DNA of 22,648 nt from a virus: positions 1-22,648 of the IMG/VR virus record IMGVR_UViG_3300009103_000167, one strand, 5' to 3'. The position numbers and the translations under genes were made by a program. Shown here piece after piece: positions 255 through 18,444 of this stretch. A model generated the notes under the pieces. The model was not told the origin of the DNA and ran no database searches. It saw nothing but the letters and a program-made list of their open reading frames with translations. Every line of letters starts with the position of its first letter. Position 1 is the stretch's first letter.

Positions 255-836
255 ATGAAGCTCCACGCACTCGCGCCCTCGAATTTTTACAACGCGACAA
301 GCCCCGAGTGCGGTCGCTGCGTCAGCCTCGCCGACTACCTGGCCGCGTGCGGCCTGACCGATCACGTCGACGCCGCCATCCAGGAGCTGATCCCTTCGGA
401 GGTCGAGCGTTGGTCTGTCGACGTGATCCTCTCGAAGACGGTCGTCAAGGGGACGCGGGCGATCTCGAAGTTCGGGAGCATTCACTTCGGGAAGCTCGTG
501 ATGCAGATCACCGAGCTGGACTGCTCGCCGGCCGAACGCGCTGACACGCTGCTCCACGAGATCGCGCACCTCGTTGCCTACTTTCATCTCAGGCATCGCG
601 GGCACGGCATCGAGTGGCAGCGGTGCGCCGTCGCCCTGGGCGCGAAGCCCAACCGATGCGGCTCGGACGACCGGCACGACCGAGCGGTGGCCGCGAAGCG
701 CGCACGCCAGGGCAAGGTCGTCGCGCGTTGTACGAAATGCGGCGAGAAGGTCGTCCGAATGCGACGCAGCAGTCGCGACTGGTCGCGGTTCACGCACCGC
801 GCCTGCGGCGGCGGCCGCATGGAGGCGGTCAAGTGA
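255..836 (+). CDS. SprT-like zinc metalloprotease with zinc ribbon
   Basis: The predicted product is 193 residues. HEIAH at 101-105 is an HExxH zinc-protease motif, and RGHGIEW at about 115-121 supplies the third metal-binding His (H117) typical of SprT/Spartan proteins. The C-terminus has a zinc ribbon: CTKC at 159-162 and H181-RAC184. Family members cleave proteins, including DNA-protein crosslinks, or are uncharacterised phage proteins; the substrate here is unknown. I chose ATG 255 because GGGGAG precedes it at good spacing. ATG 219 is in frame but would coincide with the predicted transcript start. It is the first gene of promoter unit 1 and overlaps or abuts the next gene. The family call is firm; the biological role is not. 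Confidence 0.8.
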   Translation: MKLHALAPSNFYNATSPECGRCVSLADYLAACGLTDHVDAAIQELIPSEVERWSVDVILSKTVVKGTRAISKFGSIHFGKLVMQITELDCSPAERADTLLHEIAHLVAYFHLRHRGHGIEWQRCAVALGAKPNRCGSDDRHDRAVAAKRARQGKVVARCTKCGEKVVRMRRSSRDWSRFTHRACGGGRMEAVK

Positions 837-1343: not shown

Positions 1344-1372
1344 TTGACAGATCGGATGCCCGCGGGCATATT
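1344..1372 (+). promoter_or_regulatory. Sigma70-type promoter 2 with embedded palindromic operator
   Basis: TTGACA (1344-1349), 17 bp, CATATT (1367-1372). The spacer holds TGCCCGCGGGCA (1357-1368), a perfect 12-bp palindrome in the same register as at promoters 1 and 3. CTTTTTTTGTTTTT lies immediately upstream. Predicted transcription start is near 1379, close to the leader hairpin. Confidence 0.85.
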
Positions 1373-1415: not shown

Positions 1416-1679
1416 ATGGCAAACCAGAACATCAAGAACGCGATCCTCTGGGCCGAAGCGGCAGCGTTTGACCTGGGACCCGAGGGCGAGATCCTCACCG
1501 ACCTGGAGCGGGTCAACATCGCGGCCCTCGATCATGCTACGGCGCGCAACATCGACGCCATCGCCCATCGGCTGGCCGACGCGGTCGCCGACCTGGACGC
1601 AGCCCTCACGGCCGCCACCGACGGCACCCGGGAGGCCATGCACGGCACGGCCGGCACGCTGGAAAAGGGAGCCAACTGA
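1416..1679 (+). CDS. Unknown 87-residue helical protein
   Basis: First gene of unit 2, beginning MANQNIKNAILWAEAAAF. It is Ala- and Asp-rich and probably all helical, with heptad-like spacing around residues 36-70, so it may form a coiled coil or a small bundle. I recognise no domain. The start is well supported by AAGGAG at 1404-1409, six bases before ATG. Its stop overlaps the next ATG as TGATG, so the following mini-gene is translationally coupled. No function can be assigned. Confidence 0.75.
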   Translation: MANQNIKNAILWAEAAAFDLGPEGEILTDLERVNIAALDHATARNIDAIAHRLADAVADLDAALTAATDGTREAMHGTAGTLEKGAN

Positions 1680-1792
1680 TGGTAGCCGCAGCCTCGCGCT
1701 GGTGGGCCGGAGTCCTCGCCAACCTCGACCGCCAGCCGGTGGTCGGAACCGCCGGCGGCGCTGTCGCGCTGGCGCGGAGGGCGAGCCGATGA
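1679..1792 (+). CDS. 37-residue mini-protein coupled on both sides
   Basis: The ORF runs from ATG 1679 to TGA 1792 and reads MVAAASRWWAGVLANL at its start. AAGGGAG lies upstream at good spacing. The ATG overlaps the preceding stop (TGATG), and its own stop overlaps the next start (ATGA). It fills exactly the gap between two real genes, which is the main evidence that it is translated. The N-terminal half is amphipathic or hydrophobic with a WW pair; the C-terminal end is basic. Alternatives are a leader peptide that only feeds ribosomes to the next gene, or a membrane-active peptide. Confidence 0.5.
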   Translation: MVAAASRWWAGVLANLDRQPVVGTAGGAVALARRASR

Positions 1793-2793
1793 CCGTCGCC
1801 GTCTTCGCCGGCGTCAACACGACGCGCATCGCCGAGGCGACCGAGGGCTTCCCGATCCTCGTGTCCTTCGCTTCCTGGATCGACGGCCACCGCGGCGTCG
1901 TCGAGCGCGACGTTCTGCCGCGACTTCGAGCTGGCCTCCACCCGCATTCGATTCTCGACTCGGGTGCCTTCTCGGAGCTGACCGAGCGCGGTCGGTCGGC
2001 GCGCAAGCTGGCCGACGCGCTGGGCGTCGAGCCCCACGAGTTGACCGCCGACCAGTTCGAGATCGTGAAGGCCGACGCCGCGAAGAAGTTCAACGTGAGC
2101 ATCGACGACTACATCGAGTTTTGCCTCGAACACGGCCACCTCTTCTCGCAGGTTGTGACCCTCGACGACATCGCCGGCGACCTCGCGGTGACCTGGTCGA
2201 ACACGGCGAAGATGCTCGAAGCAGGCCTCGACCCGGTTCCCGTTTTTCACGGGCGCGAGCCCTTCGATGTTCTGCGCCATTACTGCGAGAAGTTCGCCCA
2301 CGTCGGCCTCGGATTTTTCCGCGAGCCGTCAGGGAAGAAGGTCGTCATCGCGAAGGACCAGGGCGACGGGCTCACCCCGGACGAGTGGCTGACGAAGGCG
2401 CTCGACATTTGCGAAGCCGCAGGCGTTGAAGTCCACGGCTTCGGCATGACCCGCTGGGCGCTGAAACTCGGCCACGAACGGCTGACGACGAGCGACTCGA
2501 CGACCTGGCTCGCCGAGTACCTGGCGATGCGACGGCGGTCGTCGACCGGCGGCGACCGACTCGGCGACGGCGCAGCCGCGGAGCTGCTCGCGAACCTCGG
2601 CGACTCCGAACTGATGAAGCTCGCGCTCGCCAGCTATGACGGCACCGGCCCCGACCCCGAGATGGAGACGCTGCTCGCCGAGGCTCGCGGCCAGGCGAAG
2701 ACCGCGCTCGCGCGGTTCACGAGCGGCGAGCTGGGCCGGCTGCTCGCCGGCTTCGAGGCCGACGCCAAGGTCGACGAGCAGCTCGCGGCGTGA
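1789..2793 (+). CDS. TGT/DpdA-like base-exchange enzyme (putative 7-deazaguanine DNA modification)
   Basis: The predicted product is 334 residues. Several motifs match, as I recall them, the phage branch of the tRNA-guanine transglycosylase fold: DSGAFS (57-62), TLDDIAGD (124-131), PVFHG (151-155), HVGLGFF (171-177), VHGFGMT (215-221) and SDSTTW (235-240). The DSG and LDD aspartates would be the catalytic candidates. In phages this family (DpdA) exchanges guanine in DNA for a 7-deazaguanine base and so protects against host restriction. No preQ0 synthesis genes (folE, queD, queE, queC) are visible here, so precursor would come from the host or from genes outside the window. The start is fixed by GGAGG 8 bases before ATG 1789. 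Residues 245-334 form a charged helical tail of unknown role. A tRNA-acting TGT relative is the main alternative. Confidence 0.62.
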   Translation: MTVAVFAGVNTTRIAEATEGFPILVSFASWIDGHRGVVERDVLPRLRAGLHPHSILDSGAFSELTERGRSARKLADALGVEPHELTADQFEIVKADAAKKFNVSIDDYIEFCLEHGHLFSQVVTLDDIAGDLAVTWSNTAKMLEAGLDPVPVFHGREPFDVLRHYCEKFAHVGLGFFREPSGKKVVIAKDQGDGLTPDEWLTKALDICEAAGVEVHGFGMTRWALKLGHERLTTSDSTTWLAEYLAMRRRSSTGGDRLGDGAAAELLANLGDSELMKLALASYDGTGPDPEMETLLAEARGQAKTALARFTSGELGRLLAGFEADAKVDEQLAA

Positions 2794-5180: not shown

Positions 5181-5411
5181 TCAGCGCAGCGCCAGCTCCA
5201 GAGCCCAGCCGGCCAGGCCGGCGAAGGCCGCGAGCGCGGCCGCTAGGGTGTAGAGGCGAACCCGGAGCGCGACGAGCTGGCGCTCCAGGTCGTCGACCGA
5301 CTCGGCCAGGGCGTCGACGATCATCCGCTGATTCCGGTGGTCGTGGCGCTGCTGGTCGGCGCGCGAGGCCAGGACCGCGAGCTGCTGCTCGTCCGAGAGC
5401 GGCGCGGTCAC
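5181..5411 (-). CDS. Small coiled-coil protein with C-terminal membrane segment
   Basis: The predicted product is 76 residues. Residues 1-50 are charged and helical with heptads (VDALAESVDDLERQLVAL). Residues 54-76 form one hydrophobic segment rich in Ala and Leu, so the protein is probably tail-anchored. It is the last gene of the late operon and overlaps the oxygenase stop as ATGA. Possible roles are a membrane partner in lysis or an exclusion protein; neither is shown. Confidence 0.65.
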   Translation of the reverse strand: MTAPLSDEQQLAVLASRADQQRHDHRNQRMIVDALAESVDDLERQLVALRVRLYTLAAALAAFAGLAGWALELALR

Positions 5412-5986
5412 TCGTCCGAGAAGACGGTCGTCTTCTTGCGCCGGCGGGGCTTCTTCTTCGGCGGGGCCGGCTCCGACGCGCCGGCCACAGCTTGCAGCTC
5501 CGCCGAGACCAGGACGTCGACGAGCAGGTGGAGGCGGTTCGACGCGCCCCCGTTCTTCGCCGCGTGCGGTCGGGTCCCGTCCAGGACGATGGCCTCGCCG
5601 ACGGCCAGGTCGACGCGCGACTCGTCCTCGATCTCGAAGAAGGCGTCGGGGTAGGCGGCCAGCGCGAGGTGGACGTTCGCGACGTTGCCGACCTCGAACC
5701 CCATCAACTTCCCGGGCAGCTTTTTCCCGGCCTCGACCGGGTCGGCGTGCCGTGGCCGCCGGCCCCCCGCGCGAAGGACCAGGACGACCACGCGAACTTT
5801 TTCGCCGGGGATCGCGTCGACGATCCGCGTCAGCTCGGGCGTCCAGTCGTCGGCCTCGGGGTTGATTCCGAACCAGTTCTCGCGGACGCTCCGCGCGGCC
5901 GCGCGCTCGGCGAACTGCTCGGCGACTGCGGCCAGGTCGGCCTGGTCGAGTTCGACGTCGAGCCGTCGGACCTGGTCGTCAATCAT
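5408..5986 (-). CDS. Aspartyl/asparaginyl beta-hydroxylase-like 2OG oxygenase (putative)
   Basis: The predicted product is 192 residues. NVHLAL (H106) and, about 35 residues later, GEAIVLDGTRPHAAKN (H141), then NRLHLLVDV with R151, match my recollection of the double-stranded beta-helix core of the AspH family, which uses two His for Fe(II) and an Arg for 2-oxoglutarate. The substrate could be a protein side chain or a nucleotide; nothing here decides it. The C-terminus is a Pro-Lys-Arg tail (PPKKKPRRRKK), unusual for an enzyme and suggestive of nucleic-acid or membrane contact. GGAGG precedes ATG 5986. A cupin without this activity is the main alternative. Confidence 0.5.
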   Translation of the reverse strand: MIDDQVRRLDVELDQADLAAVAEQFAERAAARSVRENWFGINPEADDWTPELTRIVDAIPGEKVRVVVLVLRAGGRRPRHADPVEAGKKLPGKLMGFEVGNVANVHLALAAYPDAFFEIEDESRVDLAVGEAIVLDGTRPHAAKNGGASNRLHLLVDVLVSAELQAVAGASEPAPPKKKPRRRKKTTVFSDE

Positions 5987-6776: not shown

Positions 6777-7060
6777 CTTTTCCCCTCGCGGAGCTGGAGC
6801 GACAGCGACCAGCCGTAGATGTCGACGGCGCAGAAGATCAGCCCCCAGATTACAAGGCTCGAAAGCGGCACGCCCTCGAAGACCAGGACGATCCCGATGG
6901 CGACCCACGCGGCCTCGCCCCCCAATCGGAGCGGCCAGCCGAGCGCCTCCAGGCCGGGCCTCGCCTGCGGCCGGCGAGACCGACCGATCAGGAGCATCCC
7001 GATCAGCGACGCGGCGAAGGCGAAGTGGCCGACGATGTCGAGCGCCTCGAAGACGGTCAC
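6773..7060 (-). CDS. Small multi-pass membrane protein
   Basis: The predicted product is 95 residues from GTG 7060, overlapping the upstream stop as GTGA. Hydrophobic segments lie near residues 8-26 (VGHFAFAASLIGMLLIG), 49-62 (AAWVAIGIVLVFEG) and 66-84 (SLVIWGLIFCAVDIYGW). A holin or another membrane effector is possible from its size and topology. The longer ORF upstream of GTG 7060 is rejected because it lies within the protease gene. Confidence 0.65.
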   Translation of the reverse strand: MTVFEALDIVGHFAFAASLIGMLLIGRSRRPQARPGLEALGWPLRLGGEAAWVAIGIVLVFEGVPLSSLVIWGLIFCAVDIYGWSLSLQLREGKR

Positions 7061-7491
7061 GGCCGGTAGACCTCCGGGAACCTCCAGCTCGCAGTGTCGC
7101 CTGGCGGATCGTTGTCCCAGAAGGACTCGACCAGCGAGCCGTGGGCCAGAGCCCAGACGGCGTCGTGGGGGAATCGGTCGCGCGGTCGCGCGCGTCCCTG
7201 GCTCGACAGCCCCGTCCGCTCCTCCCATCGGGCCGGCATCGCGACCAGGCAGTGCGCCCACTCGTGGAGCAGCGTGTCGACCAGGATCGCCTTCGGCCAG
7301 GCGGCGGCGTCGACCAGCGTGATCCGCGAGCGCGGTCCGACCTTCTCGGCCCATCCGAAGACGCGCTCGCTCCGCGGGAGGTTCTCCCAGCGCACGAAGC
7401 GCAGCTCGACGGGCGCGGGGCACGGGTGCGTCGCCTTCAGCCACGAGGCGATCTGGCGCACGCGGCCCCGTCGAGTTCGAGAGCAGGGCAT
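7057..7491 (-). CDS. HExxH zinc metalloprotease-like protein
   Basis: The predicted product is 144 residues. LLHEWAH places the zinc motif at 76-80; the likely third ligand region is PHDAVWALAHGSLVESF (H109 or H117). The fold resembles SprT/ImmA-type gluzincins and lacks the C-terminal zinc ribbon seen in the left-arm protease. The substrate is unknown. Its start overlaps the metallophosphoesterase stop (TGATG), so it is made in the late operon. It is the second HExxH protein in the window, with little similarity to the first outside the motif. Confidence 0.65.
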   Translation of the reverse strand: MPCSRTRRGRVRQIASWLKATHPCPAPVELRFVRWENLPRSERVFGWAEKVGPRSRITLVDAAAWPKAILVDTLLHEWAHCLVAMPARWEERTGLSSQGRARPRDRFPHDAVWALAHGSLVESFWDNDPPGDTASWRFPEVYRP

Positions 7492-8975: not shown

Positions 8976-9206
8976 AGGGGTGCGGGCTTCGAGGCCCTGG
9001 ACCTGCTCGATGGAGTCGCACGCGCACTCGAAAACGTGTTCTTCGTGCGCGAGGCACCACCAGTCCTCGCAAGAATCGCAGCGGACCCAGCGGCCCCAGA
9101 GTTCCACTTCATCGGCCGGCCGGTAGCGGGGGTCGAGAAGTTTCGCGCCTGGTTCGCAGTCGCACCGAACCGCGGGCTCGCAGCTCTCAGCGTGTTGAAG
9201 GCTCAA
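8952..9206 (-). CDS. Cys-rich probable zinc-binding protein
   Basis: The predicted product is 84 residues from TTG 9206, overlapping the previous stop as TTGA. Cys pairs and His cluster: CDCE, then VRCDSCEDWWCLAHEEHVFECAC. That is enough for one or two zinc sites of treble-clef or ribbon type. No family is recognised. It sits right after the holin-like gene. A short basic tail ends the protein inside the inverted repeat at 8964-8975. Confidence 0.6.
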   Translation of the reverse strand: MSLQHAESCEPAVRCDCEPGAKLLDPRYRPADEVELWGRWVRCDSCEDWWCLAHEEHVFECACDSIEQVQGLEARTPARAGRPA

Positions 9207-9397
9207 CGGTCATCGTCGGCCATCTTCGCCTTGTTCAGGTTCAGCGCGATGAGCGAGAGCCCGTCGAGCAAAACCTGGGCGAGAGGCGACTTCGAGCGAC
9301 TCGTCAGAACGGCGCAAAGCGCCGAGGCCAATGTGACCGCCGCCGTCAACGCGGGCAGCCATTCGGAACCGATGTAGGCGTTCCAGAGTTCTGTCAT
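9203..9397 (-). CDS. Small holin-like membrane protein
   Basis: The predicted product is 64 residues. One clear membrane segment (WLPALTAAVTLASALCAVL, about 13-31) and a second, weaker hydrophobic stretch (LAQVLLDGLSLIALNL) suggest one or two passes. It lies directly downstream of the M15 peptidase with GGAAGGAG before ATG 9397. Size and context fit a holin, or a membrane protein of the lysis cassette. It ends in a charged tail, KMADDDR. Confidence 0.6.
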   Translation of the reverse strand: MTELWNAYIGSEWLPALTAAVTLASALCAVLTSRSKSPLAQVLLDGLSLIALNLNKAKMADDDR

Positions 9398-9400
9398 GTT

Positions 9401-9799
9401 CTACTCCTTCCCTCGCGGGATTTCGATATGGCCGAAGTCCGGCCATGTTTTCATCTTGAAGTCGCCGCGCCAGTCGCCACCCCATCGGATGACGAAGCCC
9501 GGCGACGTGGTCTCGGACATTGCCCTCGCCGTCGCCAGGAAGTACCCGCCGAGCAGGATGAACTGCGGAGGCTTCCATGTCACTGGATACGGGCAAAAGT
9601 CCAGGGCCATCCCGACCAGGTGGCGGGAGTTCATCGTCTTCGACGCGCCCTGCTCGAACAGCTCGCGCTGTCGCTCGGGAGTGCGAAGGCCTTCGAGAAC
9701 TGAAAAGTCGGCGACCTCGATCACGCGCTCCGCGAGTTCCTGGAGCCGCGGGTCGATCCCCGAAAGCGCAGCGCGTGAGCGCTTGCCGAACGCCGGCAC
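9401..9799 (-). CDS. M15-family peptidase, probable endolysin
   Basis: The predicted product is 132 residues from GTG 9799. The M15 zinc site is visible: SRHLVGMALDF gives H60 and D67, and DFGHIEI gives H124. GLRTPERQRELFEQG upstream is the usual substrate-side block. Related enzymes are L-alanyl-D-glutamate endopeptidases (as in phage T5) or D,D-carboxypeptidases that cut peptidoglycan stems. There is no signal peptide or cell-wall binding domain, so export would depend on a holin. Both flanking genes encode membrane proteins. Confidence 0.85.
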   Translation of the reverse strand: MPAFGKRSRAALSGIDPRLQELAERVIEVADFSVLEGLRTPERQRELFEQGASKTMNSRHLVGMALDFCPYPVTWKPPQFILLGGYFLATARAMSETTSPGFVIRWGGDWRGDFKMKTWPDFGHIEIPRGKE

Positions 9800-9800
9800 G

Positions 9801-10091
9801 CTACCGGCCCTCGCGTTCGATGATAACGAGGACGCGGTTCAGCTTGCGGTCGATCTCGGTGGTGGTCTCGCGCTGCTCCTTCTGCTCGACTCGGATCTCC
9901 TTCAGGTCTTCCTTGATCGTGGCCTGATTCGCCTGGACCTTCACCAGCGCCGGGCTCGCTGCTACCATCTCTTGAATCGCCGACTGGTCGGCCCAGGCTC
10001 CCGAGATCGAGCCGGCCCCCGCGCCCAGGCCTCCGCCTAGGGCGAGAATCGCCACGGTCTTCCAGGTCCCGTTCCCGTTCCCGTTCGGCAT
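9801..10091 (-). CDS. Membrane-anchored coiled-coil protein of the lysis group
   Basis: The predicted product is 96 residues. A short Asn/Gly-rich start is followed by a membrane segment (TVAILALGGGLGAGAGSISG, about 12-31). The rest is a charged helix with heptads (QATIKEDLKEIRVEQKEQRE), ending basic. The topology fits an Rz-like i-spanin or a pinholin-type partner. It lies just before the M15 peptidase. AGGAG precedes ATG 10091. The 9-base gap to the previous gene is one of the few true gaps in the operon. Confidence 0.6.
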   Translation of the reverse strand: MPNGNGNGTWKTVAILALGGGLGAGAGSISGAWADQSAIQEMVAASPALVKVQANQATIKEDLKEIRVEQKEQRETTTEIDRKLNRVLVIIEREGR

Positions 10092-10100
10092 TGTCGACTC

Positions 10101-11111
10101 CTAGGTGGCCGGGCCAAGCTCGACGGCTTCTACCGCGAACCAGGTCCAGAAGTGCGCGTCGATGGTGTTTCCCGCGCCCAGGTAGAGGTTCAGCTTCAGC
10201 GTATCCCCGGCGGCGACGGCGAGGACCGGCGAGACCTGCGAGTGGGGGACGCCCGTCGTCATCGTCGCCGCGGACTGCAAAACGAAGCCAGGGAAGTCCC
10301 CGTCGCCGTTCTTCCAGATCTGCGCGTTGAGCGTGTTCGCCACCGTGTTCAGCGGTAGCACCGAGAAGGCCGCGCGGACGTGGGTCACGCCGCTCGGGAC
10401 GGTGAAGAAGCCGTCTCCGCTGGTGCCGACCCAGCCGCCGATGTTGTACGTCTCGGTACCGAAGACGGCGATGGTATTCGTCGTCGCGCTGATGACCTGG
10501 TCGGAGGTCATCGACAGCATCGAGCCGCGGAAGTAGAGCCGGCGGTCGATCTCGGTGAGTCCCTTCGTGACCAGGCCGACCGCGTCTACGTCACCGTACT
10601 CGATTGTCGGGAGCCCGATGTTCGGCGTGAAGTCCGCGTGGATGCCGTAGCCGGTTTCGACCAACTCGGTGCCGGTGAAGTTCGCAGTCATCGCGAACGT
10701 GTCGGACGTGTGCCCCGAGCTGGCGAGAGTGTAGTTCCCCGTGGCCGACTTCGAGAAGACGACGGTCTTCGATCCCGACGCGGTGATCGTCGGGTTCGTC
10801 GACCAGTCCGGCGGCGAGGTCGCCGCCAGGGCGGAGATCGTCCCGTTGTTCGAGGTGGCGGCGACCACGCGGATCGCCTCGCCAGAGGTCGGCGCGACGC
10901 CGGCGGTCCGGTAGAACCGGAGCCGGTTCAGGCTGGAGTTCCACGAGGTCACCACGCCGTCGCCGCCGGTCGACCCGCTGCCGCCATCCCAGTCGATCAC
11001 CAAGCCCTGCGAGAATGTCCCGGAGACGGTTTCGAGCGTGACGGTCCAGACGTGCGAGACGGTCGCGGAGCCGTTCGCGACTCGCACGAGGCCCGCGTTC
11101 ACTTGGCCCAT
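10101..11111 (-). CDS. Tail fibre / receptor-binding protein with C1q-like end
   Basis: The predicted product is 336 residues, rich in Gly, Ser, Thr and Val and probably all beta. The N-terminal 90 residues (MGQVNAGLVRVANGSATV) look like a fibre base. The C-terminal 140 residues (from about GGWVGTSGDGFFTVPSGV to WFAVEAVEL) resemble the C1q/TNF jelly-roll found at phage fibre tips. It follows the tail-tip gene and the small DUF4376-like gene, the usual place for adhesins. I infer trimers and host binding. GGAGGAGGGA precedes ATG 11111. Confidence 0.65.
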   Translation of the reverse strand: MGQVNAGLVRVANGSATVSHVWTVTLETVSGTFSQGLVIDWDGGSGSTGGDGVVTSWNSSLNRLRFYRTAGVAPTSGEAIRVVAATSNNGTISALAATSPPDWSTNPTITASGSKTVVFSKSATGNYTLASSGHTSDTFAMTANFTGTELVETGYGIHADFTPNIGLPTIEYGDVDAVGLVTKGLTEIDRRLYFRGSMLSMTSDQVISATTNTIAVFGTETYNIGGWVGTSGDGFFTVPSGVTHVRAAFSVLPLNTVANTLNAQIWKNGDGDFPGFVLQSAATMTTGVPHSQVSPVLAVAAGDTLKLNLYLGAGNTIDAHFWTWFAVEAVELGPAT

Positions 11112-11515
11112 TAGTTCCCTCCTCCGAAGGTGATGGTGACGGCCTGGACTTCGCCGACCGTCGTCGCTTCGTTCAGCGCGTCCCGCGCGTCGAAGTAGTG
11201 CTGGTCGATCCCCAGGCGCGCGGCGACCGCGTTCGCGAGCATCGCGAGCGCTTCGGCCTCGTCCATCGAGACGCGCTCATTCTCGGCGTCCACCCAGTAG
11301 CCTCCGTGGGCGTCAGGGTCTCCCGCCCGCAGCTCCGCCAGGACGGTCGTCACTCGACCGAGCGCCGAGTCGTCGATCTGGAAGACGTGAGATAGCCAGG
11401 TGAAGCCGGACTCGACCGCGGTCAGCCGGTTCTGGTTCAGGTTGCCGAGCGCGAGCGCTCGCTTCAGCTCCATCTCGTCGCCGAGTTCGCTGACCAGGTC
11501 CTCGATCTCGGTCAT
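11111..11515 (-). CDS. Small tail-associated protein, DUF4376-like
   Basis: The predicted product is 134 residues. The first half is a helix that may form a coiled coil (LVSELGDEMELKRALALG). The second half (MDEAEALAMLANAVAARLG, then ARDALNEATTVGEVQAV) resembles the helical repeat I associate with DUF4376 proteins encoded next to phage tail fibres; this match is from memory. A fibre attachment or assembly role is possible. It overlaps the tail-tip stop (ATGA) and the fibre start (TAATG). Confidence 0.5.
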   Translation of the reverse strand: MTEIEDLVSELGDEMELKRALALGNLNQNRLTAVESGFTWLSHVFQIDDSALGRVTTVLAELRAGDPDAHGGYWVDAENERVSMDEAEALAMLANAVAARLGIDQHYFDARDALNEATTVGEVQAVTITFGGGN

Positions 11516-14500
11516 CGCTTCACCGCCTTCGCGTCGAATCTCGTACCCGCCGCACCCTTTGTGCCTTGCCAGATGGAATTCCCGTCGTGGGCGAGCATGA
11601 ATCGGTATAGGTGCGTCCCAGCAGTCACGCCCTTCTCGACCACCGAATAGGAGAAGCCCTGGTGGACGTTCAGGTCGCCGTAGGGTGCGCCGCGCACATT
11701 GAGCGGCGAAGCGTGAATTTTCCGAATGTAGGAGGCGTCGGGAACCGCGATCCCCACGGTTCCCGTGAAGTTGACCGTCGAGCCGGAAGTCGAGTCGACC
11801 GTCAGGTAGACGTGCTGGAGATACGCGCTCGCGAAGCTGACGACGTCGCCGGCTTCGAGAAAGTCTTCCGCGTCCCCCGTCACGAAGTCCGCGGACGTGG
11901 CCGACGAGGCCAGCGCGTCCTGGAGCGTCCCGACGTTCTCGTAGCGGTCGATCCTGAAAAGCGGCGCGAAGTCATTCGTCGCGTGCGTGGACGACTTGAA
12001 GACCTCGCCGGTCCAGGTAAGCTCGGCGTCGAAGGTATCGGTCGAGGTCGTCGTCAGCCCGGCGTGTTCAATGAAATAGGTTCCCGCGTAAGTGTCCGCG
12101 GAGAGGCTGCTCGTGTTTCGCGCGGTCACCGACTCCGACTGGAGCGAGGCCGTAGAGATCGCCGGCTGGACCGTCAAGACGCGCGACGCGGAGACGTTCA
12201 GGTCGCCGGCCTCCCAGGCCTTCCAGGGCGTCGAGGCCGGAGGGTTCCGGTGAAAGGCGTCGGCGGCGGCAAACCTGTAGTAGTGCGTACCCGCCGACGG
12301 GAATGGGATCACCGCGTCACGTTCGGTGGCCTGCGCGTAGACAAGGCTCGACTCGTTCAGGGCGAAGCCCTCGGTGGTTCCCGACCAGATGTAGATCGCG
12401 TCCACGTCCGGCCCCGATATGGTGTTTTCTTTAAAGCGAAAGCGAAGACCGAGCCCGCCGTCGACCGCTCCCAACGATTGGAGACTCGGCAGCGCCGGCG
12501 GTTCGTCGAAGGCCAGAATCTCCGCTGGCTCCCCCGGCACGAGCGCGCCTTCGAGAATCGGGGCGACCACGAAGCGATAGCCCCCGCGACTCGTCGAAGG
12601 TCCGGGGTTCAGGTCTTGCGCGTTCATCTGGAGCGTGTACTCGAAGCGGCTTTCGGTGGTGTAGACTTCTGCGGTTCGGAGCAGCGAGCTGGTCCCCGGA
12701 TCGACGATATTCTGCGCGTCGCCCTGCACCAGTTCGCCGGCTTCCGCGCTCTGAGTTACCGCTGCACCGACCGCCATGTCGGGGATCAGACCCGTCTCAG
12801 GAAACGGCCTGTCGAGGTAGAGGATGTCGTGGCTCGGCTGCGGCAGGTACTGCAACGCGACCGGCTCGAACACGGAGCCGTCGGCCATCGAGATCTGTAT
12901 GGGTACGTTCATCCTAAAATCAGAACCCGTTCCCGCCGTTATGTAGACGTTGGTCGTGCCGGCGTTCCTTGCGTTCGTGGATACCGTCGCCACGTCGTCC
13001 GGCGCAAATTCTCGGAAGGTCAGCGACTGGATTAGCGACGGCGGCGGCTGCTCGGGCGGCTCTACCCGAGCGCCCTCGTAATACAGCGAGAACTTGAAGC
13101 CGACCACGAAGTGATCGAGCGCGCTCGGACCGTCGAGCGAGTCCGATGCGATCTCGCTCGACATCGCCGCGACCGCCGTCGACGTCTGGAACTCGCTGCC
13201 GGTCAGGCCATCGCCCACGGCGTCGCCGAGGTTCTTCTCCCAGGTGAAGACCAGGCTCCCGTTCTCGTAGGCGACGTCGAGGTGAGAGAAGCGAGCGTTC
13301 CCAGGGCTGAAGACGGCGTCGGCTTCCGACGGGTCGATGGCTCCGGTCTCGACCCAGGCGGAGGTCAGCGCGGCATCGCTGCGAAGCGCTCGGACTCGGA
13401 AGACTCGCGGATAGCGGACGGCGACCCCCGCGTAGGGCCAGGGAATTCGGATCGTTGTCTGGCCGGTCGCGGTCACGCGCACCGCGTTGGACCAGGTGCC
13501 CCACGAGTTATCCTCGCGCCAACTCGCCTCGAAGGCGGAGGTCGAGGCGTGCGACAGTAGGGTCGGTGCGACAATAAGGTCGATGAAGTCTGGACCAAAA
13601 AGCCAGGACACGATCACCGGGTCGCCAGGCAGGGTTCGGCCGTCGTACCGCGTGCCGGTCGAGAAGACCGGCGCGAACGTGGACTCTTCTTCGAGTGCGG
13701 ACCAGATCCCATTCGCCTCGTCGACGAGCGTGACCCGCGCGGCCAGATCGTCGGTCGGCATTATCCCGACCACGATCATCCGCTTCGTCTCCGCGGCGAG
13801 CTGGCCGAAGCTCAGGACATCGCCGACCGCCGGGCCGTTCGCCGTTGGGATCGCCCCGCCTAGCGAGATCGACTTTGTGGACACGCTCCCGCCGGGGGGC
13901 GCGGAGTTCACCACCGAGTCGTAGGTGATCGCACCGTCCGCCTGCCGGATGCGGACCCCGTAGACGAGACCGTCCTCCATGTAGGCCGCCTCGTCGAGGT
14001 CGAGTCCAGTGACACTCCCGCTGCCGGTGACGCCAGAAATCCTGGCGAAGTTGGTGCCGATCATCGGAACGTCGTGGCAGAACTCGACCAGGTCGCCGCG
14101 TTCCAGGAAGAAGTTCTCGATGTCCAGCTCGACGACGATGATCTCGGAGCGGAGGTCGCGGGAGATCAGCGAGAACTTCCCGGCCTGGTAGGCCTGGTCT
14201 GCGTTGGTGACGCCCCATGTGTCCATCGTCTCGAAGATGGTGGCCGGCTTCACCCCGTCCAGTGCGTCGTCTCCGTATCCGGCGCGGTAGACAATGGTCT
14301 CGCGGTTGCTCCCGGCGTCGTCGTTGAAGTTCACGCGAATCGCGTGGGCGATCTCCGGGTAGGTTCTCTGGCCCTGAAGCGAGAAGGCCTTCGTGTTCCG
14401 CGGCGTAATCATCGCGACCGCCGCTTCGTCGTTCCCGTTTTCGTCGTAGCGTGGCCGGTCGATGGTCACGCCGACGCGGCCATCGTGGAATGAGATCGAG

Positions 14501-17500
14501 GCCATGCCGACCGACGCGATCTGCTCCAGGAGGTCGCCCTGTGTTGTCACATAGTCGATCACCGCGTTGACTTCGAGCGGCTTGTTCGCCGGTGTTGCCA
14601 CGGCCATCGCGTTGCACCAGCCCTGGTATTTGAACGGCTCGGTGTACTTGATGGGCTCCTCCAGGTAGATGGAGTTACCGTCGATACTCTTCACGATGCC
14701 GGACCCGCGGCCGTCCGGGTAGTCGACGACCACGCTCGACTCGTACTCGATGAAGTCGCCGACCTCAAAGCCAGACGAGTCCGCGAGGTGCAAGACGTTC
14801 CCGGTCAGCGTCGCGACGGTTCCGGTCGTCGAAGCCTTCGACCAGGGGACCGTCGGACGGTCTCCGCCGGGGATCGGATCTATGTCGATCTGGTAGTGCT
14901 TGTCGAGGTAGAGGTTCGCTTCCCCGCGGACGACGTGCGAGTCGCCGGAGGAGTCGGTCACCTTGAGGTGATGCACTTTTTTGTACGTCCAGGTATTCCC
15001 CGGCGTGTGCGCGAGGTTCGTTCTGGTGGACCCTTCGAGACGCATCGGGTAGAGGACATAATCGAGCGACCATAATCCCTGGCCCCCGGCGACGTTGTAG
15101 CCCGAGTGGTAGTTGTAGAAGACGACCTGGCTGTCGCTGGTTTGGAGCCCGAAGCGGAATTCTTTGTTGAGAACCGAGGCGTCGGTACCATCGGCGTCGT
15201 CGCCGACCCAGACGCGCGCGACGTCGAGCTGATACTTCCGGGTGACCGTCGTCGTGTAATTTTCATTCCCGTCGGAGTCGTTCAGATATGGCGCACCCTG
15301 CCAGGCCACGTAGGGGCCGCCGCTTATTTTGCCGCCGAGCGTGTCGACAACGATGTAGCAGTTATCGGTCGTGTTGACGTCGCTGTGCGCCGAGAAGTCC
15401 CAGTGGAGGTCGACCCACTCGCCGGTAGCCGGCGTCTGCGAGGAGCCGTTGACCTCGGTCTCGGTCGCGACCAGGGTCAGGCCCGACAGCTTATAGATCC
15501 GGCACACGAAGCTCCAGCTCGACCACTCCCACTTCGCACTCTCCGGGCGGCGCACACGCAGGTGGACGTGCTTGCCGTTGTCGAAGTCGATATTCGCGCC
15601 CGCAGTAGAGAGCGACCGAACCACCTGTATCTGGGAGTAACCGGAGAACAGATAGAGGCCACCGGCCAGCCTAGGCGGTTCGTGGATCGCCCACACTTCG
15701 TCCTCGGTGAACTCTGAGTTCATGTAGTAGGTCGAGAGATAGGTGCCCGCGGTCGGACTGCTCGGAGACGACGTGAAGGGAATCGAAACGTCGGCCTGCG
15801 GCCCCTCGCACCACTCCGAAAAAGTCTTGAGACGGTCGCCGTCGATGTATTTGTCGTCGACGGGAACGATCCCGCCGTTGCCGCGCAGGACGTCGGCGAT
15901 GGCCCAGGCCGGGTTCGAGTTCAGGAACGGCGTGAAGTCGGTCGTCTCGGCCGTCGGCGCGACCCAGGCGTCGCCGTCGTAGTACGGGAACAGGCTTTGC
16001 GTCTCGCAGTTGACCGTGTCGAGGACGCCGTCGAAAATATCGCTCGCCCGAACTCGCAGCGAAACCTCCGCCAGCTCGGTCTCGTTGACGGCGTCCCCTT
16101 CGAGGTGCGATGTAATCCCGTTCCAGCTCGTGTTATTCGCATAGAGTTTATTGTGAATATTCGCCCATTCCGCGGCCTCGACTTTCACATCCCACTGCCA
16201 CTGGTCGCCTTCAAATGCGATATGGCCGCCGAGTTCGATGGTCACGGTGTACTGCGACGAGGTATCCCACTCCCCCGGTAATGTCGCGCGGATGCACTGG
16301 GTCGACTCCGTCTCGCCCCTAAAGGTGTAGTTGACTCCGGTAGATGCGAGAGTCTCCGCGATGTTGCTCCCGAATATTTTCGCCGACCGGACGAAGGTCA
16401 TATTTCCATTGACTCCGAACTCGTCCGAGACGTTGTCGATGGTCGCCCACTGCGTCGGTCTAAATGCGATATATATGTCGACGGCACTGGTGAAGCCGTC
16501 CATGTCTGGGTCGTGAATCCGCGAGGGGCCGTTCAGGCCGAAGGTGAGCGTGACGGTTTTGGTGGAAGTCTGCGAAGTCCTTACGTGTTGACCCGTAGAG
16601 CCGCCGACGTGGTAGCCCGTGAATTCCATCAGCAGGATCTGAAGCTCGTCTAGCACCCGGTTGCTCGGGACGAGCGTCGACGGTCTCTCGCCTGGGAAGC
16701 CCATCGTAACATCCATGTCGAGGTCTTCGCCGAGGACGCCGACGGCGGACTGGTTCGTGCTGACTTCCAGACCGAGCGGCGCGTTCAACCGAAAACACTC
16801 GACGAGGGTCGCGTTTGAGTCTCCAATGTGTTCGAGCATATATTCGATGGCGTTGCCGTCGAGGATCGTCAGCGACTGCGCCTCGGCCAAGCCGTTAACG
16901 TCGTAGCTGAACTCGATCACAGGCCGATATTTGATTTTCGTACCGCTGACGATCTCGGTCACTTCAATGCAGCAGGAGCGCCCGCCGCGCGCTGCTGGCA
17001 AGCTCATCGTACCCTCTACCAGTCCGCCCCCGCCTCCTTGAGTCGTGGTACTCATTTCCGAAAGAGTCGGGAGATCCCCGTTCTGCCAGTCGGTAAATTC
17101 GACCTCCAGAAAAGTTCCGCGCGTGCCAGCTCCATCGTCGCGGGCCACCAGGCCGGCGGTCGTGTTCAGAGCCATCTCCGCGTCGGCCGGGTACGTCGGC
17201 CACGTCGTACTATAAGCCCCAGCCCGTTGCGCCCCATTGATGAAGAAGTGAGAAAAAATCTCCTGGTAGTAGACGCCGTCAATCGGCATTCCCCACTCCC
17301 TGAAGGTCTGATTCGAGTCGTCCGGGTCATACTCGGGAATTTTGTAGGCCGTCTCCGAGTCGGTCGGCAGGTCTGTCCCCATGTAGGGGCTTCCGCAGCG
17401 ATGGGTGATCTGCCGCCAAACCGCGTGATCGGTCACCGTCTGGATCGAGACGGTCGTCAGCCGATTCGCCCAGAGGTTTGTGCCGTAGTCCGAGAACGTG

Positions 17501-18444
17501 TGGAGCCATAGGCGGTCGTCGGTCGCCTGGTAGTTCCCGACCGGGTAGTTCGTGCCAGAGATCCCCGGCGGGTCGGGCATCGTTTTGGTGTAGCCCGCGC
17601 CGCCGTAGTTGATGATGTCGGTGTCACCGATCCGAATGTTCGAGATCAAAAGCGGCCCGGTCCCGACGATCAGCCTCGCGTAGAAATAGGTATGCTCGCC
17701 TTCGAGGTTCGCGTATGGAAACTGGCCGTAGCTGGGATGGCAGCGGACCTTCCCGAGGATGCGGGGCACCGGCTCGAAGGTCCTGATCGCGTTGCGCGCT
17801 CCACGCAGGTGCGGCGAGCTGCGAACCCCGGCGTCGGCCCCTTTCGACCTCGGCGGCTTCGCGATCACCGAGCCAACCAGGCCGGCCGCACCGAGGGCGA
17901 AGCCGCCGGCCGCGACCGTCGCCGCGGACATGGACCCGCTGAGACCCATCGTCAGGCCGCCGACGCCGAGAGCGGCGGCGGTTCCGAAACCCATGCCGAC
18001 CAGGCCGACCGCCGCGCCGGCGATCATCAGATACTGATTCCCGGTGACCGCGCCGGCGATGCTGAGGGATATAGAGATGACAATGGCCGCAATAAAAACC
18101 CAAAGCGCCCAGTCGCCCGGAACGCGCTGCACGCGAACCAGGGAGCGGGAGCGGGGCGCGGTCGTCGCCCACTCCTCGCTCTCGACGACCAGGTCGTCGA
18201 CGAAGATCCGAAGCTCCTCGGGCTTCGCGTCGAACTCGTCGGCGACGATCTGCGCGAGCGTCGGGCCAATCGGCACCAGGACCTGGCGCGTCTTCATCGG
18301 GTCGAAGACCGACTCGTGATAGACCACGCGCACGAAGCCGTCGGGCGCGAAGCCGTCCGAAATGTAGGGCAGGGCTAGCCCGACCTCGCGGACGTCCAGC
18401 GCTACTTCTCGCGGTGCCGGTAGATGCCGTTGAGTCGGTTGCAA
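11512..18444 (-). CDS. Giant tail-tip protein (lambda I plus J-like)
   Basis: About 2,310 residues from TTG 18444, against 1,132 for lambda J. Residues 40-105 look like a beta-grasp I-like domain (MKTRQVLVPIGPTLAQIV, RIFVDDLVV). About 110-195 is a Gly/Ala-rich hydrophobic region with two or three possible membrane passes. The J-like hub follows (PVPRILGKVRCHPSYGQFPY near 230). About 890-1045 resembles a jelly-roll insertion. The C-terminal third has FN3-like segments and small beta-modules. It should form the tail tip that contacts the host. The start is uncertain: coding bias begins near 18402 and no ATG is available until 18290. TTG 18444 has AGGGG upstream; GTG 18333 is the alternative. 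The extra N-terminal reading up to 18627 overlaps the NlpC gene and looks like a shadow. Confidence 0.8.
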   Translation of the reverse strand: MQPTQRHLPAPREVALDVREVGLALPYISDGFAPDGFVRVVYHESVFDPMKTRQVLVPIGPTLAQIVADEFDAKPEELRIFVDDLVVESEEWATTAPRSRSLVRVQRVPGDWALWVFIAAIVISISLSIAGAVTGNQYLMIAGAAVGLVGMGFGTAAALGVGGLTMGLSGSMSAATVAAGGFALGAAGLVGSVIAKPPRSKGADAGVRSSPHLRGARNAIRTFEPVPRILGKVRCHPSYGQFPYANLEGEHTYFYARLIVGTGPLLISNIRIGDTDIINYGGAGYTKTMPDPPGISGTNYPVGNYQATDDRLWLHTFSDYGTNLWANRLTTVSIQTVTDHAVWRQITHRCGSPYMGTDLPTDSETAYKIPEYDPDDSNQTFREWGMPIDGVYYQEIFSHFFINGAQRAGAYSTTWPTYPADAEMALNTTAGLVARDDGAGTRGTFLEVEFTDWQNGDLPTLSEMSTTTQGGGGGLVEGTMSLPAARGGRSCCIEVTEIVSGTKIKYRPVIEFSYDVNGLAEAQSLTILDGNAIEYMLEHIGDSNATLVECFRLNAPLGLEVSTNQSAVGVLGEDLDMDVTMGFPGERPSTLVPSNRVLDELQILLMEFTGYHVGGSTGQHVRTSQTSTKTVTLTFGLNGPSRIHDPDMDGFTSAVDIYIAFRPTQWATIDNVSDEFGVNGNMTFVRSAKIFGSNIAETLASTGVNYTFRGETESTQCIRATLPGEWDTSSQYTVTIELGGHIAFEGDQWQWDVKVEAAEWANIHNKLYANNTSWNGITSHLEGDAVNETELAEVSLRVRASDIFDGVLDTVNCETQSLFPYYDGDAWVAPTAETTDFTPFLNSNPAWAIADVLRGNGGIVPVDDKYIDGDRLKTFSEWCEGPQADVSIPFTSSPSSPTAGTYLSTYYMNSEFTEDEVWAIHEPPRLAGGLYLFSGYSQIQVVRSLSTAGANIDFDNGKHVHLRVRRPESAKWEWSSWSFVCRIYKLSGLTLVATETEVNGSSQTPATGEWVDLHWDFSAHSDVNTTDNCYIVVDTLGGKISGGPYVAWQGAPYLNDSDGNENYTTTVTRKYQLDVARVWVGDDADGTDASVLNKEFRFGLQTSDSQVVFYNYHSGYNVAGGQGLWSLDYVLYPMRLEGSTRTNLAHTPGNTWTYKKVHHLKVTDSSGDSHVVRGEANLYLDKHYQIDIDPIPGGDRPTVPWSKASTTGTVATLTGNVLHLADSSGFEVGDFIEYESSVVVDYPDGRGSGIVKSIDGNSIYLEEPIKYTEPFKYQGWCNAMAVATPANKPLEVNAVIDYVTTQGDLLEQIASVGMASISFHDGRVGVTIDRPRYDENGNDEAAVAMITPRNTKAFSLQGQRTYPEIAHAIRVNFNDDAGSNRETIVYRAGYGDDALDGVKPATIFETMDTWGVTNADQAYQAGKFSLISRDLRSEIIVVELDIENFFLERGDLVEFCHDVPMIGTNFARISGVTGSGSVTGLDLDEAAYMEDGLVYGVRIRQADGAITYDSVVNSAPPGGSVSTKSISLGGAIPTANGPAVGDVLSFGQLAAETKRMIVVGIMPTDDLAARVTLVDEANGIWSALEEESTFAPVFSTGTRYDGRTLPGDPVIVSWLFGPDFIDLIVAPTLLSHASTSAFEASWREDNSWGTWSNAVRVTATGQTTIRIPWPYAGVAVRYPRVFRVRALRSDAALTSAWVETGAIDPSEADAVFSPGNARFSHLDVAYENGSLVFTWEKNLGDAVGDGLTGSEFQTSTAVAAMSSEIASDSLDGPSALDHFVVGFKFSLYYEGARVEPPEQPPPSLIQSLTFREFAPDDVATVSTNARNAGTTNVYITAGTGSDFRMNVPIQISMADGSVFEPVALQYLPQPSHDILYLDRPFPETGLIPDMAVGAAVTQSAEAGELVQGDAQNIVDPGTSSLLRTAEVYTTESRFEYTLQMNAQDLNPGPSTSRGGYRFVVAPILEGALVPGEPAEILAFDEPPALPSLQSLGAVDGGLGLRFRFKENTISGPDVDAIYIWSGTTEGFALNESSLVYAQATERDAVIPFPSAGTHYYRFAAADAFHRNPPASTPWKAWEAGDLNVSASRVLTVQPAISTASLQSESVTARNTSSLSADTYAGTYFIEHAGLTTTSTDTFDAELTWTGEVFKSSTHATNDFAPLFRIDRYENVGTLQDALASSATSADFVTGDAEDFLEAGDVVSFASAYLQHVYLTVDSTSGSTVNFTGTVGIAVPDASYIRKIHASPLNVRGAPYGDLNVHQGFSYSVVEKGVTAGTHLYRFMLAHDGNSIWQGTKGAAGTRFDAKAVKR

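Follow-up and report, generated by a model that had tools for sequence, protein, structure and literature searches.

For two phages, the function of DpdA has been tested by experiment. In Escherichia phage CAjan, dpdA is needed for dPreQ0 in DNA (Hutinet et al. 2019, PMC6884629), and the DpdA of Enterobacteria phage 9g puts preQ0 into plasmid DNA (PMC6884629); both phages carry FolE, QueD, QueE and QueC. Hutinet et al. also report 76 phages with dpdA but without precursor genes (PMC6884629). Their group 3 (Salmonella phage 7-11 and Orion) and Pantoea phage MED16 have this gene content, the host being the presumed supplier of the base. Levels of modification in these singleton carriers vary: Orion has no modified guanine (its host lacks the pathway; PMC6884629), dADG amounts to 0.02% of G in 7-11 (PMC6884629), and MED16 reaches 0.13% of G without being shielded from the tested enzymes (PMC8306585). 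The locus described here resembles these three phages, a likeness of gene content and not of compared DpdA sequences. It lies on a viral fragment of 22,648 nucleotides (IMG/VR record IMGVR_UViG_3300009103_000167), which was analysed whole and is called the window below, and it consists of an intact, ATG-initiated ORF of 334 aa with its neighbours (Table 1).

Table 1. Features of the dpdA locus and of other parts of the window (nucleotide positions in the window unless stated).
Feature	Position	Strand	Basis or remark
Sigma70-type promoter of the dpdA unit, TTGACA-N17-CATATT	1344..1372	+	ATGCCCGCGGGCAT inverted repeat in spacer
SprT-like zinc metalloprotease, HEIAH	255..836	+	PF10263, above cut-off
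87-aa ORF, head of the dpdA transcription unit	1416..1679	+	No family match (Pfam, PHROGs)
37-aa ORF, ATGA overlaps with the preceding ORF and with dpdA	1679..1792	+	
dpdA-like gene, predicted TIM-barrel guanine transglycosylase homologue	1789..2793	+	Homology, alignment, fold prediction
DSGAFS motif, residue 57	1957..1974	+	D57, aligned with TGT Asp102 / DpdA 'DCGAF' position
Insert of about 31 residues in the window protein alone	1993..2091	+	Missing in both close relatives, L113 and L010
TLDDIAGD motif	residue 124 of the window protein		
PVFHG motif	residue 151 of the window protein		
HVGLGFF motif	residue 171 of the window protein		
Base-binding loop, remodelled from YIALGG to HVGLGFF	2299..2391	+	Followed by clade-specific DQGDGLTPDEWL insert
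VHGFGMT motif	residue 215 of the window protein		
SDSTTW motif, residue 235	2491..2508	+	D236, aligned with TGT nucleophile Asp280 position
G051-like tail-tip and downstream proteins	9203-9397, 11111-11515, C-terminus of 11512-18402; L121 4602-6597	- (window)	

The window protein matches PHROG 887 (queuine tRNA-ribosyltransferase; profile search, E = 5.3e-20) and the experimentally tested 9g DpdA (BLASTP E = 2e-15, 28% identity over 170 aa), and tblastn with it reaches 144 phage records, the best at E about 2e-12. Among the best named phage matches are the DpdAs of Mycobacterium phages Bipper and Typha (E about 1e-12), which belong to another clade. Likeness to the 9g and CAjan enzymes extends to a homologous catalytic barrel, the order of the motifs and invariant Asp, His and Tyr residues, at about 28% identity over the aligned core; unlike them, the window protein has no RYPWY segment ahead of the nucleophile, and its C terminus is unrelated to theirs. 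L113, a relative 64% identical to the window protein, itself matches the DpdAs of CAjan (E = 9e-9) and 9g (E = 4e-15). The Pfam DpdA model PF23859 gives the window protein 15.1 bits, below its cut-off of 27; as none of 54 aligned homologues matched this model at E <= 0.01, it evidently covers this DpdA branch poorly. Searching with the family profile returns 7ui4, a bacterial DpdA (DNA-guanine transglycosylase) that is longer at 436 aa, as the best solved-structure match; the match is weak (E = 0.027), and it aligns the two catalytic motifs, placing DSGAF on DCGAF and SVDSTSW on SIDSTTP. The AF2 model is a predicted TIM barrel (pLDDT 79.5, pTM 0.77). Its viral structural neighbours in BFVD include queuine tRNA-ribosyltransferases (E to 4e-7); in the PDB generic TIM barrels come first and TGT (6rkt) follows at rank 8, with TM-scores of about 0.5 or less among the matches listed and 7ui4 outside the best 50 fold matches listed.

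All six motifs on which the original prediction of a DpdA-like enzyme was built are present and in order (Table 1). Ten residues are invariant in the alignment of 54 homologues (D57, S58, G59, Y108, L125, D126, P151, H154, H216 and D236), and the window protein has every one of them. D57 and D236 align with the catalytic Asp pair of TGT and DpdA, and the protein also carries the HGFG, DSGAF and DSS-TW motifs that serve with this pair to mark a DpdA. When the gene is compared with its 64% and 56% identical relatives, codon position 3 is clearly more diverged than positions 1 and 2; this pattern holds among three unrelated phages, so dpdA is under constraint at the protein level. The PHROG 887 match, the tblastn matches, the existence of full-length relatives and the codon-position constraint together place the observation beyond chance. 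Profile, pairwise, tree and predicted-fold evidence thus bears out the assignment and, judged by its sequence, the window protein is a genuine, divergent DpdA homologue. To the eye, the insert found in the window protein alone (RSARKLADALGVEPHELTADQFEIVKADAAKKF) looks like the latter half of an XRE-type helix-turn-helix, a likeness without Pfam support.

Membership in the TGT superfamily, and the annotation of many tblastn homologues as queuine tRNA-ribosyltransferase, would suit a phage-encoded TGT that acts on tRNA and not on DNA. The TIM barrel and an equivalent catalytic Asp pair are indeed common to the window protein, bacterial TGT and human QTRT1, but the window protein has no Pfam TGT match, and its only cysteines (C112, C166 and C208) include none in a CxCxxC arrangement, leaving it without the Cys3-His zinc site. 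In TGT, the CxCxxC zinc site is part of the tRNA-binding scaffold (PMC6165067). The protein is moreover closer to DpdAs demonstrated to act on DNA, one of which, from 9g, does not complement delta-tgt (PMC6884629). We consider a tRNA substrate very improbable, the missing TGT match and the missing zinc site both ruling against it.

Two full-length relatives occur in viral contigs, L113 and L010 (56% identity to the window protein). The L113 record (G051, 39,234 bp) has podophage-type portal, terminase, capsid and tail spike genes, together with a CI-like regulator and a DNA methyltransferase; the L010 record (G001, 36,126 bp) is a myophage record with tail sheath, baseplate and terminase genes, and the tail genes of the window are siphophage-like. 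A tree of 86 homologues groups the three proteins in one clade on a long branch (SH-aLRT 100%). Further scans of viral contigs returned just L113 and L010 as close relatives, and a single scan of genome contigs, whose search patterns might overlook members of the clade (L113 for one), returned distant homologues alone. In sequence, the three-member clade is sharply separate. Its recurrence in siphophage, myophage and podophage records without detected precursor genes suggests a mobile singleton dpdA. The tail-tip and downstream proteins of the window share 40-58% identity with their counterparts in the podophage-like G051, carrier of a sister dpdA, and the two phages may have hosts in common. 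The window's central tail protein is nearest to those of Bradyrhizobium, Rhodovulum, Nitrincola and Rhizobium phages. On the chromosome of a Streptomyces (genome G079), two DpdA-like genes, L131 and L135, are separated by about 0.5 kb.

As had been noted at the outset, no precursor genes were detected in the window: QueD is absent by profile search of this 22.6 kb linear fragment, and no preQ0 pathway gene appears among its ORFs annotated with Pfam and PHROGs. QueD, QueC and FolE are likewise absent from the records of both close relatives (G001, 36 kb; G051, 39 kb), and the linked preQ0 pathway of Hutinet groups 1 and 2 was found in none of the three. The original prediction left the base to come either from the host or from a pathway encoded elsewhere. 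Because dpdA and its two closest relatives sit without base-making genes, the phage probably takes the base from its host, which is the better supported half of that claim. Preceding or following sequence could still hold preQ0 genes of the phage's own, the record being a linear fragment, and QueD is present in 44 of the 50 DpdA-carrying records (QueC in 36); against this, dpdA usually has the pathway genes on its flanks in those annotated relatives that were examined, but its neighbours in the window are not genes of that pathway, and the two nearest relatives lack QueD, QueC and FolE. Such a private pathway strikes us as quite unlikely.

The explanation that we favour, at a probability of roughly 0.6, is a stand-alone DpdA of the phage branch, encoded by a mobile accessory gene, that would modify DNA with a host-supplied base. 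Asp280 is the residue of TGT that attacks C1', and Asp102 helps to insert the base (PMC6165067); by analogy we propose D236 and D57 as the corresponding pair: D236 would attack C1' of deoxyguanosine in phage DNA, releasing guanine, and D57 would assist insertion of a 7-deazaguanine-type base. That base would be drawn from the queuosine pathway of the host, as preQ0 or a near derivative. The DNA would then be sparsely modified, which may impede restriction or other host proteins that read guanine. MED16 and 7-11 set a precedent for singletons fed by the host (PMC8306585, PMC6884629). The sub-cut-off Pfam DpdA score, the low TGT fold rank and the differing base-facing loop all count against a host-fed DpdA, as does the lack of modified base in Orion, though Orion's host has no pathway. 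Since the published singleton-DpdA phages carry little or no modified guanine, a strong anti-restriction effect of the window dpdA is uncertain; as the measured singletons vary, the gene probably modifies DNA just as far as the host supplies base. The same measurements (dpdA but no modified guanine in Orion, traces alone in 7-11 and MED16, with MED16 dADG blocking none of the tested enzymes; PMC6884629, PMC8306585) would fit a relic or inactive paralogue, or an enzyme active just in base-making hosts, with virion DNA not really affected. We judge this unlikely: all catalytic positions are kept and three unrelated phages conserve codon positions 1 and 2, so the protein is under selection.

The base-facing loop sets the clade apart. 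Where nearly all DpdAs, including those of 9g and CAjan, have LGG, the window protein, L113 and L010 have LGF[FA] (LGFF in the window protein), followed by a conserved DQGDGL[TA]PxEWL insert. The second Gly is also missing from Bipper and Typha (LGK) and from other homologues, which makes the GG loop common in DpdA and not strictly defining. Bipper and Typha have no QueC annotated beside dpdA; unlike the window, they have FolE, QueD and QueE there. Across 86 proteins, the second Gly (after G175) gives way to V, K or F in 13 of 25 from records without QueC and in 0 of 61 from records with it, L011 (LGGR, QueC present) being counted as GG and the absence of QueC being uncertain where records are contig fragments. 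Counted by rows and ignoring shared ancestry, the association of GG loss with QueC loss is strong (Fisher p about 1e-7), but the trait changes just 5-6 times or so on the tree, and a pair test that takes the tree into account finds no significance; with so few independent events we do not claim the link as shown. There is precedent for a loop residue discriminating C7 side chains, as Gly232/Val233 decides the fit of the larger queuine side chain in human QTRT1 compared with bacterial TGT (PMC6165067). As the clade has lost the Gly-Gly that faces the C7 group, the second Gly becoming Phe in all three members, and has gained an insert of its own, its base may differ from preQ0, and the loop replacement possibly marks which 7-deazaguanine goes into the DNA. 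That the enzyme is a DpdA whose base choice has changed, inserting for example preQ1, 7-carboxy- or unsubstituted 7-deazaguanine in place of preQ0, is an idea we hold tentatively and at low confidence. With similar reserve we hold the composite proposal of a previously undescribed DpdA subgroup that spread as a single gene among sipho-, myo- and podophages and, with its rebuilt loop (GG to GF plus DQGDGL), would insert a host-derived analogue other than preQ0.

The expected coupling of dpdA to two small upstream ORFs is present, with ATGA overlaps at both junctions. Neither ORF has a significant tblastn relative in L010, L113 or other dpdA loci, and the 87-aa ORF matches no family; the absence of detectable relatives beside dpdA in the sister phages leaves the proposed accessory role unsupported, and we rejected the pair as conserved accessory factors. 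The promoter of this unit is one of three near-identical cassettes (the others at 184-212 and 2880-2908; expected by chance, zero) whose spacers carry an RTGCC-N4-GGCAT inverted repeat. T-rich tracts precede the cassettes, terminator-like stems lie upstream of the first two, and the arrangement looks like a shared repressor operator over three early units. SprT-like proteases are a family linked to DNA-protein crosslink repair, and the enzyme class of DpdA forms a covalent nucleic-acid intermediate; the SprT-like protease encoded in the window might act on DpdA-DNA covalent intermediates. The protease gene lies upstream of dpdA in the window, and a homologue (33% identity over 96 aa) lies immediately upstream of dpdA in the L010 record (9350-9850). 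As an obligatory DpdA partner the protease was rejected, being absent from G051 and present in only 4 of 50 DpdA records, in two of which it lies about 4 and about 15 kb from dpdA. The late region of the window encodes an aspartyl/asparaginyl beta-hydroxylase domain (5408-5986, minus strand; PF05118, 34.8 bits, above cut-off), and a second short protein with a metalloprotease-like HEWAH motif (7057-7491, minus strand) has no Pfam match.

Lone DpdA enzymes were already known; this small group is distinct from them in sequence. If active, it would amount to a one-gene DNA-modification cassette that taps the queuosine precursor pool of the host and is small enough for transfer between unrelated phages. 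The clade offers a clean test of whether DNA is in fact modified by singleton DpdAs, and of whether the loop past the first Gly sets which 7-deazaguanine goes in.
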